Positions 180 to 9,314 of a stretch of 64,000 nt of DNA are shown here, in pieces. The stretch covers positions 1 through 64,000 of the forward strand of contig NZ_VWNC01000003.1 of assembly GCF_013387455.1 (NCBI RefSeq). Reading direction: 5' to 3'. Below the pieces are notes generated by a model. The model made no database searches. It was not told where the DNA came from and saw only the letters and a program-made list of their open reading frames with translations. Both the position numbers and the translations under genes were made by a program. This DNA comes from Mariprofundus sp. NF (GTDB taxonomy: Bacteria > Pseudomonadota > Zetaproteobacteria > Mariprofundales > Mariprofundaceae). Positions within the stretch are counted from its first letter, which is position 1; every line of letters begins with the position of its first letter.

Positions 180-719
180 GTGACACCTGAGGGTGGCGGA
201 ACTGGGTTTTACATTAATAAAGATGGATTACTCATCACTAATGCTCATGTCATTGAAAGCTACAATGAAGTAAGAGTTGAATCATTTGCTGGTGGACATT
301 CGATATCATGCCCTGTGGTAAGAAAAGTAGATGACTATGACGTAGCACTAGTTAAATGTGATACTGTTTCTCTGCCAGTTCGCTTACCATGGAAAGGATG
401 GGTGCAACGAGGAGAGTCCGTAAATGCTATTGGAGCGCCATTTGGTAAGCCAGCGATTCTCACTAAAGGTGTTGTTAGCAATCATTTGACAGAAGAAGAG
501 TTAATTCGAAGTGATGTAGAAATTCATCCAGGGAATAGCGGCGGACCTCTGTTTAACTCAAAATGGGAAGCTATAGGCATTACTACGTCTAATTATGCAA
601 TCCCCGTAATGGGGCTAGAAGGGGAATCAGTAGATGTGACCGTACCAGGGATAACTAAAGCGATCCCAATACTGCGTGCCCTTAAAGTCTTAAATATAAA
701 AGTCCATCACCGCAAATGA
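180..719 (+). CDS. Trypsin-like (HtrA/S1C-type) serine protease, probably 5'-truncated
   Basis: The protein carries the three signatures of a chymotrypsin-fold protease: NAHV (His), a DYDVALVK segment (Asp) and GNSGGPL (Ser), with GGTGF before the His motif. No signal peptide or PDZ domain is present; at 179 aa it is just the catalytic domain. The only in-frame start near the fold is GTG at 180, without a good ribosome-binding site. The frame stays open back to 117, and the extra residues (NIDESIVRVVTPEGGG) read like genuine protease sequence. The gene therefore probably began further upstream and lost its 5' end to the IS element ending at about 116-130. All catalytic residues survive, but expression is doubtful. 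Confidence 0.7.
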   Translation: MTPEGGGTGFYINKDGLLITNAHVIESYNEVRVESFAGGHSISCPVVRKVDDYDVALVKCDTVSLPVRLPWKGWVQRGESVNAIGAPFGKPAILTKGVVSNHLTEEELIRSDVEIHPGNSGGPLFNSKWEAIGITTSNYAIPVMGLEGESVDVTVPGITKAIPILRALKVLNIKVHHRK

Positions 720-1061
720 GCCGGCAGTGTAGAAATCCACAATGCTCTTGAGTGCTGGATTCGAGTGCAATCTGCACCAGCAAGTGTCTTCACAACATTT
801 CCTAGTATTTATTGATGCCAGCAGCCTCAATGCTTATTTGCCAGCAATGATCTGAACATTGAAACAGGTGCATTAAAAATATCCCCTAGCTGCCATTTGC
901 CAGTAAATTTAATCTGACATCATTTTCATAAACCGTTCTAGGCAGTACTACCCCAATCAAGGGTGAAGCCTGGCAATTCAGACCCATGGTTTTTTGAGCG
1001 TTTTCGGCGACCTTAAAAGGCACCTTCAATTGTTCGTTGTAAAACGACCCTATCCCTATCT
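720..1061. other. Intergenic stretch without recognisable genes
   Basis: No open frame with a ribosome-binding site or recognisable protein is seen on either strand. Short pieces such as GTGCTGG, CCAGCA and GCCAG recur through it and resemble degenerate versions of the arms of the repeat array that begins about 430 bases further right, so it may contain decayed repeat units. Confidence 0.4.
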
Positions 1062-1114
1062 TAACGGGTAAATAAAAAAGTACCCGTTACAATTACCCGT
1101 TAACTTTACCCGTT
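1062..1114. repeat. Palindrome plus three 13-bp-phased TACCCGTTA repeats
   Basis: TAACGGGTA (1062-1070) and TACCCGTTA (1081-1089) form a perfect 9-bp inverted repeat with a 10-base A-rich loop. The right arm is then repeated directly at 1094-1102 and, one base shorter, at 1107-1114. The three copies start at 1081, 1094 and 1107, a regular 13-base period. This resembles a cluster of protein-binding sites (iteron-like or operator-like), located just left of the 103-bp repeat array. Confidence 0.6.
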
Positions 1115-1152
1115 CCAGTTTGAAAAATTGGATATGGAAGCCATTCATGACT

Positions 1153-1965
1153 TTGCTGGCACCTTCAGACAAGCAGGTGCTGGCAAAGCCTCATACCCTC
1201 TAAACCCGTTGAAAAATAAAGTGCCAGCACTCGATCCACGACCGCTGGTAAAAAGTGCTGGCACTTTCAGACAAGCGGGTGCTGACAAAGCCTCCTGCCA
1301 GCTAATATTCGTTGAAAAATAAGGTGCCAGCACTCGATCCACGACTGTTGGTAAAAAGTGCTGGCACTTTCAGACAACCAGGTGCTGGCAAAGACTCCTG
1401 CCTGCTAATATTCGTTGGAAAATAAGGTGCCAGCACTCGATCCACGACTGCTGGTAAAAAGTGCTGGCACTTTCAGACAACCAGGTGCTGGCAAAGACTA
1501 CTGCCTGCTAATATTCGTTGAAAAATAAGGTGCCAGCACTCGATCCACGACTGCTGGTAAAAAGTGCTGGCACTTTCAGACAAGCAGGCGCTGGCAAAGA
1601 CTCCTGCCTGCTAATATTCGTTGGAAAATAAGGTGCCAGCACTCGATCCACGACTGCTGGTAAAAAGTGCTGGCACTTTCAGACAAGCAGGTGCTGGCAA
1701 AGCCTCCTGCCTGCTAATATTCGTTGGAAAATAAGGTGCCAGCACTCGATCCACGACTACTGGTAAAAAGTGCTGGCACTTTCAGACAAGCAGGTGCTGG
1801 CAAGGACTCCTGCCTGCTAATATTCGTTGGAAAATAAGGTGCCAGCACTTTGTTTGTGGCATTTGCTGGCACTATTTCTATTTGGCGCCCATTGAAAAGT
1901 CCTACAGCATCAAAAAACGTTGGGAAATGAGGTGCCAGCACATGATTATTGTAAAAAGTGCTGGC
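1153..1965. repeat. Tandem array of 103-bp repeats with nested hairpins
   Basis: GTGCCAGCAC recurs at 1221, 1324, 1427, 1530, 1633, 1736 and 1839, always 103 bases apart, and again at 1932 (93 bases). Six full units are flanked by a partial unit on the left and a shortened, divergent one on the right. In each unit GTGCCAGCAC pairs with GTGCTGGCAC 34 bases further on; a second hairpin pairs AGCAGG with CCTGCT. Units differ by a few substitutions, and there are no unique spacers. As 103 is not a multiple of three, no reading frame runs through. The array ends a few bases from the stop codon of the AAA+ ATPase gene and would be its 3' untranslated region if transcribed leftward. Confidence 0.9.
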
Positions 1966-1968
1966 AGC

Positions 1969-3681
1969 TTAATTAAGAATAAACCCGATCCCATTTTGAG
2001 ATTTAGAGTCGCCCTTCATGCCCAACATTTGAATGGCTGCCAACACATCTGTGTCTTTCAGCTCTAACTGTTCTGAAGTGACCTTTTGTCCTTCAACGCG
2101 ATTAGCTACTAATGAAATGGACCTCATAATGATCTGCTGCATCCCTCTGATTGAGATCCCATCTACTGACGCAACTATAAAAGGGATATCACCACCTATT
2201 TCAGAAAAAAAACACTTGCCCCACCCCTGCTTATTTTCTGCCAGTAAATCTTCATACAAGATCGATGAAATCTGGATTCTTTGCTCTAAGCTTGGAGAAG
2301 AAACATTGATAACGTGTGCTCTATCTCTAATCGGTTCAGGCACTCTTTTAATGTTATTTGACGTAGCTGCCCAATTTATGAAACTCGCATCAATTTCAAA
2401 GTCGTAGAATTCATCCCTGAACCGTTTAGCACTCATCCGTTCCAGTAAAGTATACAGCGGTTGGGCTGGCGGAAAGTTGTTTGCCCCCTCAATCATTTTA
2501 TCAATCTCATCCATTATAATTAAACAATTTGGCATCCGGTTTTCTATAAGAAGGTTTGCAACATGGCCCGGCTTTCCCGTCCCCCACCCGCGTGATTGAC
2601 CAGAAATATCAAACCCATTTGTCAGCTCCGCAGCGCCGATGATCCTATGCTTAACTCCAAACTCTTTAGCCAAATAGTGTAGCGCCGCAGTCTTCCCTAC
2701 CCCTGGTGGACCATCAAAGATATACATTGAATCAAAGAGTTTCAGAGGTGCTTTAGAACCACCCAACATAGATAGACATAAATTCATTTCGATTTCGTCG
2801 GCCAGAGTCGAAAGGTGCGGAAACCTTAATCTGAATTTGACCAACACATCTTTGTAGTTTTTTGGAACCGTTGCTAAAGAGGCCCTGCCGTTAGTGGTGA
2901 GCAGGTCTTCTAACAAAGGTATGTAGGCCTCATGATTTTTCTTTTGTGAGTTTCTCAATAAATCAACCAGCTTTTTAACTTCTTTTGAATCACAAAGCTG
3001 AATAGAGGGCTCTTTACATTTAACCTTCCTATGAGCAATTGAGGTATCCTTACGAGATCTGAACCCTCCCTGAAATTGCCTCTTATTTTTCACCTCGGAT
3101 TTGCACCAAAGACATTCTAACTCATACATAAACAATTCATATTCTGATAATATCGCATCATAAATAAGGTCTGTTTTCCCCTTATATTCCGAATTCTTAA
3201 TTTCTCTTACCAAAAATGATTTATAGCTTTCAAAATTATCTCTGAAAGCATCAAGCAAATTCATATAGGCTCTATCACCTTTAGACACAGTATCTGCAGT
3301 AATCCGTTTAGCTGAGATGCTAACTAATTCACTTGCTTGCATTACTACAAAAAGCGATGCAATGGGATAACATCCCTCACCGTCCCATAGAGTTTCTAGC
3401 CTCGTATTGAGCATATGCATCCGGTCTTTAAATATCTTTTGGCATAAAGCTTTTGAGGCTGAATCAAAATCATGTTTTAAACTGATATACAGACGGTTTG
3501 GAATCAGGGAGGGAAATTCATTCATAACCTGATCATTAACTAGGAATCCATCATCCATTTTAGCAATCTTCTTTATGAGCTGGTCCATGATTTTATTCTG
3601 CTTAATCACTGCAACTCGATTCACACGCCTCAGCCTTTCAACGTGTTTGATGAATTCATTTAATTCCTGCTCATAAGACAT
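1969..3681 (-). CDS. Lon-like AAA+ ATPase without protease domain, island-encoded
   Basis: The protein has 570 residues from the ATG at 3681, preferred over the TTG at 3699 because AGGGAG lies 7 bases before it. The C-terminal half is an AAA+ module: Walker A GPPGVGKT (residues 324-331), Walker B IIMDEIDK (about 388-395), a sensor-1 segment WAATSNN (about 440) and an Arg finger in PIRDRAHVI. The order and wording resemble the Lon AAA domain, but there is no Ser-Lys protease domain and no Lon N-domain. The first 320 residues are a helical, Lys-rich region of unknown type with several Cys. It probably remodels a protein or nucleoprotein partner; the target is unknown. Its 3' end abuts the 103-bp repeat array. 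Confidence 0.75.
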   Translation of the reverse strand: MSYEQELNEFIKHVERLRRVNRVAVIKQNKIMDQLIKKIAKMDDGFLVNDQVMNEFPSLIPNRLYISLKHDFDSASKALCQKIFKDRMHMLNTRLETLWDGEGCYPIASLFVVMQASELVSISAKRITADTVSKGDRAYMNLLDAFRDNFESYKSFLVREIKNSEYKGKTDLIYDAILSEYELFMYELECLWCKSEVKNKRQFQGGFRSRKDTSIAHRKVKCKEPSIQLCDSKEVKKLVDLLRNSQKKNHEAYIPLLEDLLTTNGRASLATVPKNYKDVLVKFRLRFPHLSTLADEIEMNLCLSMLGGSKAPLKLFDSMYIFDGPPGVGKTAALHYLAKEFGVKHRIIGAAELTNGFDISGQSRGWGTGKPGHVANLLIENRMPNCLIIMDEIDKMIEGANNFPPAQPLYTLLERMSAKRFRDEFYDFEIDASFINWAATSNNIKRVPEPIRDRAHVINVSSPSLEQRIQISSILYEDLLAENKQGWGKCFFSEIGGDIPFIVASVDGISIRGMQQIIMRSISLVANRVEGQKVTSEQLELKDTDVLAAIQMLGMKGDSKSQNGIGFILN

Positions 3682-3756
3682 AACATCTCCCTTACGCAAT
3701 TAAGGTACAATAAAGCATTAAATTACTACTGGTTGCAGGTGCCTCGGCTATAAAAA

Positions 3757-4275
3757 TCAGCCTGATGTGGCTAGTCTGAAAATCTCCATCCGAATACGGA
3801 CATCGTTATCCGCCTTATGCTCCGGTAAAATCACATTCCTTAAAGCCTCTTCCTTTAACTGTCGTCTCCACTCACCGCACTCCCAAGAAGTAGAGCTTGG
3901 TATTGAATCGGGCCTTTCCTCATTGATTCGAAGCCAAAAATCACGCCACTGTAGTTTTTCTTGAACTCCTGAAGCCTCGAATAACCGATGGCACCAAAAA
4001 GAGTCGTAGCTGACGGCATCTGAATAAACCAATCGCTCTGAGAGCTGCTCTAGCATCACAGAAGCCACATAAGACACATCATGACCATGCTCAATTAAAA
4101 ATGCTCTAGGGATGCCATGAACCAACTCAGATTCCGAATTCCACCAGTCCCATCCCTCCGCAGTCTCAGGGTTAAGCAAAAATGAAGTGACTTTCTCTCC
4201 GATGTTCCAGGCCACCTGAATGGGATAACTTTCTTCCTCAAGACCTGATGCTTCAAAATCAAGAATAGTGATCAC
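3757..4275 (-). CDS. DnaQ-like 3'-5' exonuclease (DEDDh family)
   Basis: Residues 6-8 form the DFE motif of Exo I (LDFEASGLEEESYPIQVAW). VHGIPRA and a central D in SYDSFWCHRLFE match the Exo II region, and HKADNDV near the C-terminus is the Exo III H-x4-D motif. The protein is therefore a two-metal-ion exonuclease of the RNase T/DnaQ fold, 172 aa, a single domain. The start is taken as the GTG at 4275 because GGAGG stands about 8 bases upstream; an ATG at 4308 would add 11 residues with no such site. It lies 75 bases upstream of the AAA+ gene on the same strand and could be co-transcribed. Substrate (RNA or DNA) cannot be read from sequence. Confidence 0.72.
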   Translation of the reverse strand: MITILDFEASGLEEESYPIQVAWNIGEKVTSFLLNPETAEGWDWWNSESELVHGIPRAFLIEHGHDVSYVASVMLEQLSERLVYSDAVSYDSFWCHRLFEASGVQEKLQWRDFWLRINEERPDSIPSSTSWECGEWRRQLKEEALRNVILPEHKADNDVRIRMEIFRLATSG

Positions 4276-4505
4276 GCAATAACACCTCCGCCCATATCTT
4301 CCAAACAAGGAATAACCAAAATGATTTCTATGTTATTAATTAATGTTGGTAGAAACAGAAACTAGGCCATTGGTTCCTGTTAGATCAGTATATCAAACTA
4401 AGCGGGAATGTCAATCGTAAGTTATTAATATATAAAGTATTTTAAGGCACACAAACCATTCACTAGTTACCCACAATTTATCCAGAACTCAAACTGCATA
4501 CTTAA
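4276..4505. other. AT-rich intergenic region
   Basis: Low-complexity AT-rich DNA (several TTATTAAT and TATATAA tracts) between the exonuclease gene and the 62-aa gene. It is long enough to hold the promoter of the leftward exonuclease/ATPase pair, but no single -35/-10 pair stands out. Confidence 0.4.
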
Positions 4506-5443: not shown

Positions 5444-6910
5444 ATGGCTTTTAAACCAAAGGAGGGAGATGTATTTATCTGTGAAAAGGGCAGCTATGCT
5501 AATGTTCGACTTTACCGGACATATAAGAACGCGGGGAAATTGATTGCGTATTATTATGCTCCCCCAAAAAAGCCTGATGATGATCGCTATATAGAATCCT
5601 TAATTGATGATCTCGACGGCCCATTTTTTCCAAGTTTTAGTGCTTATGCTATTAGAGGGAATATTCCTTGTGGACTTGATTCTGAACTAAATAGCTATAT
5701 TAACATTGAAACCTGCCTAAAGAAGATTATTAATGACGCAAAATCTAACCGTATTGAGCTCACATTGGCGGAATCGCGAATTTCAGAATTGACAGGTGAA
5801 ACCTCGCAAAGGATTTCTGTAGTGCTTAAACTACTGATTGCGGAGAAAATTCAATATCAATTCAGCTCCACCAAACAGAAAGAGTTCATTGAGTTTACAG
5901 AAATAAAAATCACTTCGGAAAACAGTAAGAGTTATTACGGATCGCTTGCAAAGGAAATTGCTGTCAAAAGTGAGCAAGTATCTCTCTTAACATCTCATGG
6001 CCAAACAGCGGGAAACTATAGGGAGCACATACTTCGGTCACTTCTCAAAAAACACCTTCCTTCGCGTTTTGGCATTGGTACAGGCTTCATTGAAGGTATA
6101 TCGAGACAGCTTGATATCATTATATATGACAAGGCTAATTTCGCACCCGTTTTCCAAGAATCAGATTTGGTCGTTGTTCACAAAGAGGCTGTCAGAGGAA
6201 TTATTGAAGTGAAAACCACTTTAGATAGTCAAAAGCTTAGAGATTCATTACAGCTTTTTTATGACATATTTAGATCTGGAACATTTCACCCTAAACTGCC
6301 AATATTTAAAGGAATTTATGCTTTCAACACGAATTATGAAAGTACGGAGAATGTTGCCAAGGCAATAAGACGATTTCATATACGACCATACTTTGAAAAA
6401 ACTATACAAGCCAAAATAACTCGTGATATTCAATATCTATATCAGGAAATTTCGACTGTTTGCGTAATTAATAAGCACTTCTTGTTTACAAAATACTCCC
6501 GATTCGGGGAACGTGATAATGGAAACATTGTGCCCACATTATATTCAATTTCAGAAGAAAACGGATTGGATATCCAATCCGCTGCATTTATTGCTTCAAT
6601 CTTTGACTATCTTGATGGAGATTTTTATTCAAAGAGAACGGCGCAAAAAGGTTTTAACCAATTGATGTCTACTGAATCGGTAAAACTTAAATTTGAGAAT
6701 TATATTGCTAATCAAGATTGGGTTCCTCGAACTGCCACCCCTGGCGAACATGACTTTAGTCAAGGTGCAATCGCATCCAGGTTGGATAAACTTTCATTGT
6801 GGTTTGAGGGCGAAACATCTGCTTCTGAATACATTAAGGATATTGAAAGCAGTGGTTCTGGCGAGGCATTACGACCACCTCCATTCAGCTCCAAGCCAGC
6901 GGACAAATAA
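5444..6910 (+). CDS. DUF6602-like putative nuclease with N-terminal winged-helix-like region
   Basis: The 488-aa protein starts at an ATG with AAGGAG 7 bases upstream. Residues about 185-270 match the DUF6602 pattern: GNYREHILRSLL, then LPSRFGIGTGFIEG, then RQLDIIIYD, and finally GIIEVKTTL. The D...ExK spacing is that of PD-(D/E)xK nucleases, so DNA cleavage is plausible but unproven. The first 120 residues contain a possible helix-turn-helix (LAESRISELTGETSQRISVV). DUF6602 genes are often found in defence-type islands. It faces the Mrr-like gene, with 76 bases between their stops. Low GC and codon use set it apart from the cco cluster. Confidence 0.65.
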   Translation: MAFKPKEGDVFICEKGSYANVRLYRTYKNAGKLIAYYYAPPKKPDDDRYIESLIDDLDGPFFPSFSAYAIRGNIPCGLDSELNSYINIETCLKKIINDAKSNRIELTLAESRISELTGETSQRISVVLKLLIAEKIQYQFSSTKQKEFIEFTEIKITSENSKSYYGSLAKEIAVKSEQVSLLTSHGQTAGNYREHILRSLLKKHLPSRFGIGTGFIEGISRQLDIIIYDKANFAPVFQESDLVVVHKEAVRGIIEVKTTLDSQKLRDSLQLFYDIFRSGTFHPKLPIFKGIYAFNTNYESTENVAKAIRRFHIRPYFEKTIQAKITRDIQYLYQEISTVCVINKHFLFTKYSRFGERDNGNIVPTLYSISEENGLDIQSAAFIASIFDYLDGDFYSKRTAQKGFNQLMSTESVKLKFENYIANQDWVPRTATPGEHDFSQGAIASRLDKLSLWFEGETSASEYIKDIESSGSGEALRPPPFSSKPADK

Positions 6911-6986: not shown

Positions 6987-7919
6987 TTAGTTTATTTCTT
7001 TAGATGCTCCCAACGAAATATGCATTTCACCAGTTTCATTGATTTTATGAAAAGCCATTTCAACAGGCAAACTCTCAATGTTGAAATTAAACCCTACTGA
7101 ACTGGCTATATGTTCATCGTGCGAGGTATTCTCATAGTTGTTTATTGTTGAAATAGGCACTTCTTCTATCGTTACTGATAAATCACCAGTAAATAATATT
7201 TCTGCGATACGTATTCGACCGACTTCTGACTCCACCACGAAATGACTGTCGTCACTTTCAAATATTACTCTTAGATTTATTTCCTTTGATGCGCCATCCG
7301 TATTTAAATCATCGTATAGATTACCTGTTTTATTCACAGCAATTTGCATTGCTTCGCACACCGTTACATGTTGATCTGTCTCTGTTGAAATAAGAATCGG
7401 ATCACTGGGTTCGACGGCGACTAATCTTTTTTCTAACGCGATCCTATATTTATCAGGAATATCTTTATCAACTAATAAAACCGCATTTTTTAGAATAGCC
7501 CCCCGTCTTGTAACCGTCATTTTGTTCGGTAAAAACCAATCACTTATATCTTCCAGATGTGATTCAGTAACGGTGCGTAGTTCTATGCCAGCCTCTTTAG
7601 CATATATCGTAGCACTATCTGCAAACCCAGTTGTAGAAACGGCTATAACCTTATTAAAGCCAAATCTATCTCTTCTACCTACTAGTTGTTCAATCCATGC
7701 ACCAGGAGCGGCACCATGAGAAGGGCGATCTCTACACTCAATAAGCCATTTTAAATTGGTTGAGCCAACCTTCCCTTCTATTTCGATGTCAAACTCTGCT
7801 ATTTGTACACCATCATCATTAAACACCTTTTCATTCGTTGAAACACTTATCCCCTGAGGTAGAAGAATCTTTTCAATTTGGGCGACAAATCCTTCAAGCA
7901 ACTTTCCAGAATTCGACAT
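6987..7919 (-). CDS. Mrr-like restriction endonuclease family protein
   Basis: The start is the ATG at 7919, with AGGGGGCGA just upstream, giving 310 aa; upstream codons to 7982 lack a site. The N-terminal 130 residues have a PD-(D/E)xK core of the Mrr type: FDIEIEG (Asp), then WLIECRDRPS (Glu-x-Arg in place of the usual ExK), then VGRRDRFGFNKVIAVSTTGF and AKEAGIELR. The remaining 180 residues are not recognised. Mrr-type proteins cleave modified or foreign DNA. With the DUF6602-like gene in convergent orientation it forms a compact two-nuclease module near the integrase. Confidence 0.65.
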   Translation of the reverse strand: MSNSGKLLEGFVAQIEKILLPQGISVSTNEKVFNDDGVQIAEFDIEIEGKVGSTNLKWLIECRDRPSHGAAPGAWIEQLVGRRDRFGFNKVIAVSTTGFADSATIYAKEAGIELRTVTESHLEDISDWFLPNKMTVTRRGAILKNAVLLVDKDIPDKYRIALEKRLVAVEPSDPILISTETDQHVTVCEAMQIAVNKTGNLYDDLNTDGASKEINLRVIFESDDSHFVVESEVGRIRIAEILFTGDLSVTIEEVPISTINNYENTSHDEHIASSVGFNFNIESLPVEMAFHKINETGEMHISLGASKEIN

Positions 7920-7993
7920 TATCGCCCCCTTTTCTATTTTCAGATGAGTGAGTATCATACATAAATAGCCATTCGTTCCCATTTAACATCACC

Positions 7994-8120: not shown

Positions 8121-9314
8121 TTAACTAGGCGTATCTCTCAGCTTATCAAGATAATCTGCCCAGAACTGCATCATCGTTTTTCTCTCCTCTAGATGCTCGG
8201 CATAATTATATGCTGCTTTTACTTGGTTTCGTTCCAAGTGTGCTAACTGGCGTTCAATCACATCACTAGGCCAGCCTTCTTCATGTAGACGTGTTGAGGC
8301 CATAGCTCTAAAACCATGGCCACAAATCTCATCCTTTTCATAACCCAATCTTCTCAAGGCGGCATTGACTGTGTTTTCTGACATAGGACGATCTTTAGTA
8401 CGAATGCCTGGAAAAACATATTTGCAATGCCCTGTAACAACATGCAATTTACGCAGAACAATAATCACTTGTTCAGCTAATGGTACCAGGTGACGATCAT
8501 CCATTTTCATCTTCTGACCAGGTATAGACCACATGCCTGCATCAAGATCAAATTCAGACCATTCAGCATGCCGTAACTCCCCTGGTCGCACAAATAAATA
8601 CGGTGCCATACGCAATGCGCAAGTAACAACAAAGGTTCCTTCGTAACCTTCTATAACTCTAAGCAACTGCCCAATCTGCTTAGGCTCAATAATTGTGGCC
8701 ATTTTTTTTGATTTTCTTGCAGTCAGAGCATCTATCAAATTAGTAGTTGGATCATATTCAATGCCATGTTTTTTTCCATACTTTACAACTGCGAATCGAA
8801 AAACTCGGCTACAAAGGCTTTTCACCTTATGCATAGTTTCAATATATGATTGTTTCTCAATCTTCTCTAGCATCTCTAAAACCATTGGAGAATCGACTTG
8901 AGCTATGGGGTAGCTCCCAATTACGGGAAAAACATACATCTCTAAACGACGCCAAATTTTTGCAGCATACTCGTCAGATAATTCGTTTGATTTCTTTTGA
9001 TGCCATTTAGTTGCAACCTCCTTAAATGTAGGGCAATCAACTGGGCCATTCTTTTTTTTCAGAAGAACTGGGTCCTCACCATCATCAAGTTGCTTTCTTG
9101 CGGCGTCTTTTTTCTGCCGAGCTTCTTTTAAACTTACCTTCGGATACACGCCAAGTGCTAATGTCTTACGCCTTCCATTATAAGTGTAGTCCAAACGCCA
9201 ATACTTACTTTTGAGGGTAACTAAGAGATACATGTTGTCACTATCGGCAAGTTTTATTTGTTTCTTGCCTGCAGGGACCTTTGATTTTTTACATTTAATA
9301 TCTGTTAAAGCCAT
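8121..9314 (-). CDS. P4-type tyrosine integrase
   Basis: A protein of 397 aa beginning with the DUF4102 arm-binding domain (LADSDNMYLLV, YTYNGRRKTLALGVYP, SLKEARQKK). A SAM-like core-binding domain and a tyrosine recombinase domain follow. The catalytic set is visible: Arg in FVRPGELRHAEW, HGFR box in CGHGFRAMAST, His in RQLAHLE and the nucleophile in AAYNYAEH. The start is the ATG at 9314 with GGGGG 6 bases upstream; a GTG two codons earlier overlaps that site. It lies immediately downstream of tRNA-Met, the expected position for the integrase of a tRNA-targeting island. The length is normal, so it is probably active. Confidence 0.93.
   Translation of the reverse strand: MALTDIKCKKSKVPAGKKQIKLADSDNMYLLVTLKSKYWRLDYTYNGRRKTLALGVYPKVSLKEARQKKDAARKQLDDGEDPVLLKKKNGPVDCPTFKEVATKWHQKKSNELSDEYAAKIWRRLEMYVFPVIGSYPIAQVDSPMVLEMLEKIEKQSYIETMHKVKSLCSRVFRFAVVKYGKKHGIEYDPTTNLIDALTARKSKKMATIIEPKQIGQLLRVIEGYEGTFVVTCALRMAPYLFVRPGELRHAEWSEFDLDAGMWSIPGQKMKMDDRHLVPLAEQVIIVLRKLHVVTGHCKYVFPGIRTKDRPMSENTVNAALRRLGYEKDEICGHGFRAMASTRLHEEGWPSDVIERQLAHLERNQVKAAYNYAEHLEERKTMMQFWADYLDKLRDTPS

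Follow-up and report, generated by a model that had tools for sequence, protein, structure and literature searches.

A tandem array of hairpins lies directly downstream of an AAA+ ATPase gene near the start of the window (the whole stretch of 64,000 nucleotides that was analysed), and a second array with the same hairpin core was observed behind a second copy of that gene in the same genome. Each array belongs to a module that also holds a DEDDh exonuclease-like gene, and the pairing of the exonuclease with the AAA+ gene, and of both with an array, is found only in these two modules of the Mariprofundus sp. NF genome. Our preferred reading, to which we give a probability of about 0.37, takes the array for a transcribed 3' tail of the exonuclease-AAA+ module that would either act on the message or serve as a multivalent ligand in RNA form. 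A DNA platform and a neutral minisatellite are close rivals of this transcribed hairpin array. The features of the window were as follows.

753, 777, 818 and 841 (region 740..860), plus strand: four more array words or half-words, at spacings of 23-24 and 41
887..4477, minus strand: the duplicated module in its full length, with its homologue at L048:5365-8720 (G000:C1, about 495,364-498,719)
1046..1115, no strand assigned: AACGGGTA element, three direct repeats and one inverted copy, distal to the array
1154..1849, no strand assigned: tandem array with a 103-bp unit, each unit with one inverted TGCCAGCA/TGCTGGCA hairpin
1840-1871 and 1933-1966, no strand assigned: two degenerate hairpin units adjoining the AAA+ stop codon
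1969..3681, minus strand: AAA+ ATPase gene, 570 aa from the ATG, with a Lon-type AAA module at about 326-478 of the 576-aa ORF
3757..4278, minus strand: DEDDh-type 3'-5' exonuclease-like gene, motifs DFE, D-AVSY-D and H-KADN-D
4387..4414, minus strand: sigma-70-type promoter TTGACA-16-TATACT, hexamers and spacing identical in the second module

The array and its module in the window

Tandem Repeats Finder placed the array at 1154-1849 with a period of 103 bp, 6.8 copies, 94% matches, 0% indels and a score of 1210, in agreement with the exactly spaced 103-bp array that an earlier note had described from the letters alone. The five central units have 96-101 of 103 bases in common, while the outermost are degenerate (59-61 and 79-82 of 103 bases), and as a rule each unit carries a further single TGCTGGCA word. 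Two more degenerate units, whose 8-base arms stand 16 and 18 bases apart as against 26 in regular units, extend the series to 1966, leaving a gap of 2 bases to the AAA+ stop codon (complement 1969-1971), so that the array does end beside this stop codon as had been claimed. Four words in the region 740..860, beyond the AACGGGTA element, are probably remnants of the array. Since ORFs within the array do not exceed 75 aa and neither its period nor the 113-bp period of the second array is divisible by 3, we judged the array to be non-coding, which the earlier note had also held. Its further statement that CRISPR-type spacers are absent was likewise confirmed, and a CRISPR array was rejected: the units stand head-to-tail with 94% matches and no unique spacers.

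The same note had folded each unit into two hairpins, of which one was retained. The main hairpin, GTGCCAGCAC/GTGCTGGCAC, was observed in 8 units of the window array, with the two copies nearest the AAA+ gene being imperfect. The second (AGCAGG/CCTGCT), judged by reading the sequence, is whole in 3 of 7 units; the remaining units have it disrupted with no compensating change, and the second array does not have it, so it was dropped.

The AAA+ protein matched the Pfam AAA model and, far below the cut-off, the ATPase part of Lon models (residues about 326-478), and no Lon Ser-Lys protease domain was found in the Pfam and Lon model search; the label "Lon-like" thus applies to the ATPase domain and not to a protease. 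Its C-terminus carries an IGF motif. A GF motif closes nearly all aligned members of the family, and most of them, despite very different N-termini and partners, end in a short [IVLM]GF[IVL] tail, possibly a docking motif. Among the 398 genomes of the phylum sample, 23 besides this one hold relatives with about 29-37% identity, and among the loci inspected none of these distant relatives had the hairpin array or this exonuclease beside it. No close relative of the AAA+ gene turned up in GTDB or viral contigs, plasmids, phages or E. coli when these were scanned, and PADLOC models gave no match to it.

The Exo I, II and III motifs are found in order in the predicted exonuclease and are kept in both module copies, between which the gene shows purifying selection (dN/dS about 0.11). 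No Pfam match was obtained for this protein, and among PADLOC models a generic CRISPR-associated DEDDh one matched it weakly (E 3e-6). The best homologue outside the genome (51% identical, L150) keeps the DEDDh motifs, with changes between the key residues, and stands alone, having neither AAA+ gene nor array at its side. No DNA-binding domain was found in the AAA+ or the exonuclease-like protein, and single-sequence structure predictions were of low confidence (pLDDT 36 and 35).

The window module is flanked by integrase, tRNA-Met and nuclease-like genes. The tyrosine integrase adjoins the tRNA-Met gene, and the G+C content is 0.39-0.42 in the first 8 kb compared with about 0.50 beyond, both of which support the mobile island that the earlier note had proposed. 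Position 1 of the window is the first base of contig C3 and falls within the apparent 3' end of an IS3-type transposase gene (1-115); the far end of the island is therefore not on this contig. Beside the integrase are genes for a DUF6602 protein with PD-(D/E)xK/NucC-like similarity (5444-6910, plus strand) and for an Mrr-type restriction endonuclease (6987-7982, minus strand), a defence-type island content. A gene at 180-719 (plus strand) encodes a protein with a trypsin-like (HtrA-type) serine protease domain that lacks the customary PDZ part and has weak similarity to the protease portion of RT-Protease_XI models; it was considered as part of the module and rejected, being missing from the second copy. 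A possible defence role for the module is hinted at only by its neighbourhood and the types of its genes.

The second module and the shared hairpin core

A genome search with one unit returned weaker matches on another contig, where the hairpin pattern gave five more hairpins. Throughout the 2.53-Mb genome, exact pairs of the 8-base arms were observed only in the two arrays, and a reversed control pattern gave 0. The second locus (L048 on G000:C1) contains the same series of promoter, DEDDh-like gene, AAA+ gene, array and AACGGGTA element. Its array, with a period of 113 and 4.5 copies, directly follows the AAA+ stop codon, and in both modules the array starts 2-3 bases past that codon. As in the window, its central units are nearly identical and its edge units degenerate. 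The flanks of this module are RND efflux genes and a cluster of SMEK-domain, MC6-like and DUF2326 genes (L048 10533-13522) resembling an ABC-three-component (ABC-3C) system. Both modules are in accessory regions. By reading, we saw no target-site duplication or terminal repeats at the module ends.

Divergence between the modules is uneven. Identity is 58-78% from the upstream region to about the middle of the exonuclease gene, rises to mostly 92-100% in the remainder of this gene and in the AAA+ gene, and is broken in the array. In the first 95 exonuclease codons synonymous sites are saturated (dN 0.19), from which we infer that the modules are old relatives. The AAA+ gene has a dS of 0.08, with proteins 97% identical, and looks like a recent gene-conversion tract that would stop at the array. 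The AACGGGTA element is about 98% identical between the modules within diverged surroundings (the L048 copy lies at about 8487-8560) and could be another conversion tract; it is operator-like in appearance, and the rest of the genome has no further copy. We also considered whether a small conserved protein (VPFKVAEN.QKTMGL) is encoded beyond the array, but changes between the copies are mostly non-synonymous and the frame breaks, so it was not taken as coding.

Within the arrays, likeness is concentrated in the hairpin. Regular units of the two arrays agree in every base of the two 10-base arms (20 of 20 arm positions), and a 15-bp flank outside the hairpin is also alike, whereas the 40-55 bases of filler in each unit are unrelated. 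The common core reads GTGCCAGCAC...GTGCTGGCACCTTATTTTCCAACG, with the arms spaced as GTGCCAGCAC-N23-24-GTGCTGGCACCTTATTTTCCAACG, or in its fuller form AAAGTGCCAGCACTTTTT-CCAGCAG...GTGCTGGCACCTTATTTTCCAACG. As sequence this old would not be expected to retain all 20 arm positions without constraint, selection on the core would be the simplest reading of shared arms beside unrelated filler, although repeated exchange of short tracts between the arrays may be an alternative source of the likeness. The hairpin is probably the working part of the unit, since the second array keeps it and not the rest.

Tested units of the window array with the whole hairpin folded better than shuffled sequences (z -3.3 to -4.1), and units of the second array little better (z about -1.2). 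The 8-base arms are inverted and complementary in 13 of 13 hairpins, at inter-arm distances of 16, 18, 25 or 26. Covariance of the stems, which the earlier note had put forward as a check, was too slight to be established: in the 13 hairpins (9 distinct) one clear compensatory pair was observed, a C-G to U-A change in one unit (L048 8327-8386), 8 of 14 base pairs were invariant, and the covariation level was equalled by 44 of 500 shuffles. With a stem that hardly varies, the absence of covariation that the note had named as refuting was neither borne out nor disproved. Wobble pairs were divided over the strands, with one closing pair being A.C on the AAA+ strand and G.U on the opposite strand, and the pair at the other stem end reversed.

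Outside this genome, the hairpin with 10-base arms was absent from the 397 other genomes of the phylum sample. A looser 8-base pattern occurred once or twice each in five other genomes of the class (represented by 78 species in the genome set), never as an array. The array unit had no match in plasmid and phage collections, and with Rfam 15 at the gathering threshold a tRNA was the sole match in the window; the earlier note had known of no described element with this unit. The supposed association of array and AAA+ gene held for both copies in the genome (2 of 2) and not for the distant homologues inspected elsewhere, which have no such array.

Two other occurrences of similar form were set aside. 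Viral contigs with the hairpin pattern contained single hairpins and no comparable tandem array; six of them, 4.7-6.8 kb in length (L109, L110, L112, L113, L115, L117), share the hairpin GTGCCAGCAC-N16-GTGCTGGCAC in the same local context and are probably one small-phage group unrelated to the array. A 60-bp tandem array of 6.2 copies in another genome of the genus (G002, L070 837-1206), with the inverted repeat GGGAGTGAC-ttaat-GTCACctCCC, differs in sequence and is not adjacent to the AAA+ homologue there, lying 5.4 kb from it.

Candidate functions of the array

The earlier note had offered a structured RNA array, a binding platform for the ATPase and a recombination hotspot as possible functions; the association with the AAA+ gene gained support from the second copy with its own array, and the two-hairpin unit did not stand. 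In the transcribed hairpin array that we prefer, the module, self-contained and about 3.6 kb long, would run from the promoter through the exonuclease-like gene, the AAA+ gene and the hairpin array to the AACGGGTA element, with the array as its 3' part. The selected part of each unit would be the hairpin core, with arms of 10-11 bp, a loop of variable length and the conserved CCTTATTTTCCAACG flank, and the remainder would be filler, turned over as slippage or unequal recombination gains and loses units. Transcription from the module's own promoter would yield a tail of structured repeats, which might in cis stabilise or terminate the message at its 3' end, or might be a multivalent ligand contacted by the exonuclease or ATPase of the module. 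The strong predicted promoter on the AAA+ strand, conserved in both modules, favours such a tail, as do the place of an array right behind the AAA+ gene in both modules, the core kept beside unrelated filler and the compensatory change in one unit. That RNA rather than DNA is the active form is suggested by the arms, which are always complementary while their distance varies, as would suit a folded strand better than fixed protein-DNA spacing. Against the RNA tail are the weak covariation, the conflicting wobble strands, the poor folding of the second array, the array-less relatives elsewhere and the restriction to a single genome.

A larger role, in which the 3' array would encode a multi-hairpin non-coding RNA that controls the exonuclease and ATPase or is loaded onto them, as a two-protein-plus-RNA system whose array length is tunable or fast-evolving, we consider rather improbable.

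The array may instead be a DNA platform, an explanation we hold to be doubtful. Its near-palindromic TGC-YR-GCA octamers, about three per unit, would be duplex sites in an operator- or centromere-like cluster, bound by the AAA+ protein, its partner or another regulator. The 24 TGCNNGCA words in 700-1970 (18.9 per kb, compared with 0-0.45 per kb elsewhere in the window) are all TGCCAGCA or TGCTGGCA (24 of 24), some of them are single words outside the hairpins and beyond the AACGGGTA element, and the AACGGGTA repeats themselves resemble a second set of sites. Against a platform, the spacing of arms and words is inconstant (11, 24, 33-34, 45, 70), no such words occur at the module's own promoter in the window, and neither protein yielded a DNA-binding domain.

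A neutral minisatellite, also on the unlikely side in our estimate, would require that replication slippage had twice amplified an ordinary terminator-like hairpin behind the stop codon, giving functionless arrays. A near-identical centre with degenerate edges is the usual mark of slippage or unequal crossing-over, and both arrays have this form; the differing period and filler and the relatives without such an array also fit. Against it are a core and 15-bp flank that are alike between old modules when the filler is not, and the amplification of the same hairpin twice at the same position.

That the arrays are targets of recombination or insertion, serving an integrase or single-strand transposase in the manner of attC, REP/BIME or dRS3 arrays and spreading or rearranging the module, is improbable: neisserial NIME arrays do have a similar build of inverted-repeat cores with variable filler (PMC3898611), two copies of the module lie in accessory surroundings and the AAA+ tract shows exchange between copies, but attC core sites (GTTRRRY/RYYYAAC) and a recurrent GTAG or CGTC tag are missing, the hairpin is not dispersed, the one Y1-transposase gene that the genome search found lies at a distance of about 293 kb, and the module ends lack visible duplications or repeats of the kind noted above.

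An array that does work with the module would link non-coding repeats to an exonuclease-ATPase cassette in a way not covered by CRISPR, REP, attC or type III antitoxins. Since the core is equal and the filler unrelated between the two copies, they amount to a natural mutagenesis experiment on which bases matter. Should the array be only a minisatellite, it would be a clean case of one hairpin amplified repeatedly.

Relation to known repeat systems

We found no described equivalent of a tandem hairpin array with an AAA+ ATPase or DEDDh exonuclease in the open-access literature, and several known systems share part of its form. An integron attC array was rejected as GTTRRRY and RYYYAAC occur 0 times on both strands and there are no cassette-sized ORFs between units. 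REP/BIME elements and REPtrons are likewise small non-coding palindromes, at times in tandem, but the hairpin here is without the recurrent GTAG tag, adjoining transposase or dispersal of those elements (PMC8266576). GTAG was observed 3 times on one strand of the window array and 0 times in the second array, CGTC 0 times, and the hairpin is confined to the two arrays.

Neisserial intergenic mosaic element (NIME) arrays, composed of dRS3 and RS and 0.2-2.7 kb in length, are closer in build, being non-coding and alternating short inverted-repeat cores with other sequence (PMC3898611). The dRS3 element is a phage integration target with about 700 copies per genome (PMC3898611), whereas the hairpin core here is confined to the two arrays of a single type of gene module.

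In ToxIN, non-coding tandem repeats also adjoin a nuclease-bearing operon, but ToxI is upstream of the toxin with a terminator between them, while the array here is downstream, has units of 103 and 113 bp and accompanies no ToxN-family match (PMC8860590). A type III toxin-antitoxin system was rejected on this position, downstream of the AAA+ gene, and because no toxin family of Pfam or PADLOC was matched by either gene.

The nearest gene pairs are those of the same-genus AAA+ relatives inspected (G002, G011, G022), each of which pairs with a calcineurin-like phosphoesterase. These have no hairpin array and carry a metallophosphoesterase instead of the DEDDh partner, but they share with the module the same Lon-type AAA+ family, at 29-37% identity, and the C-terminal IGF motif.
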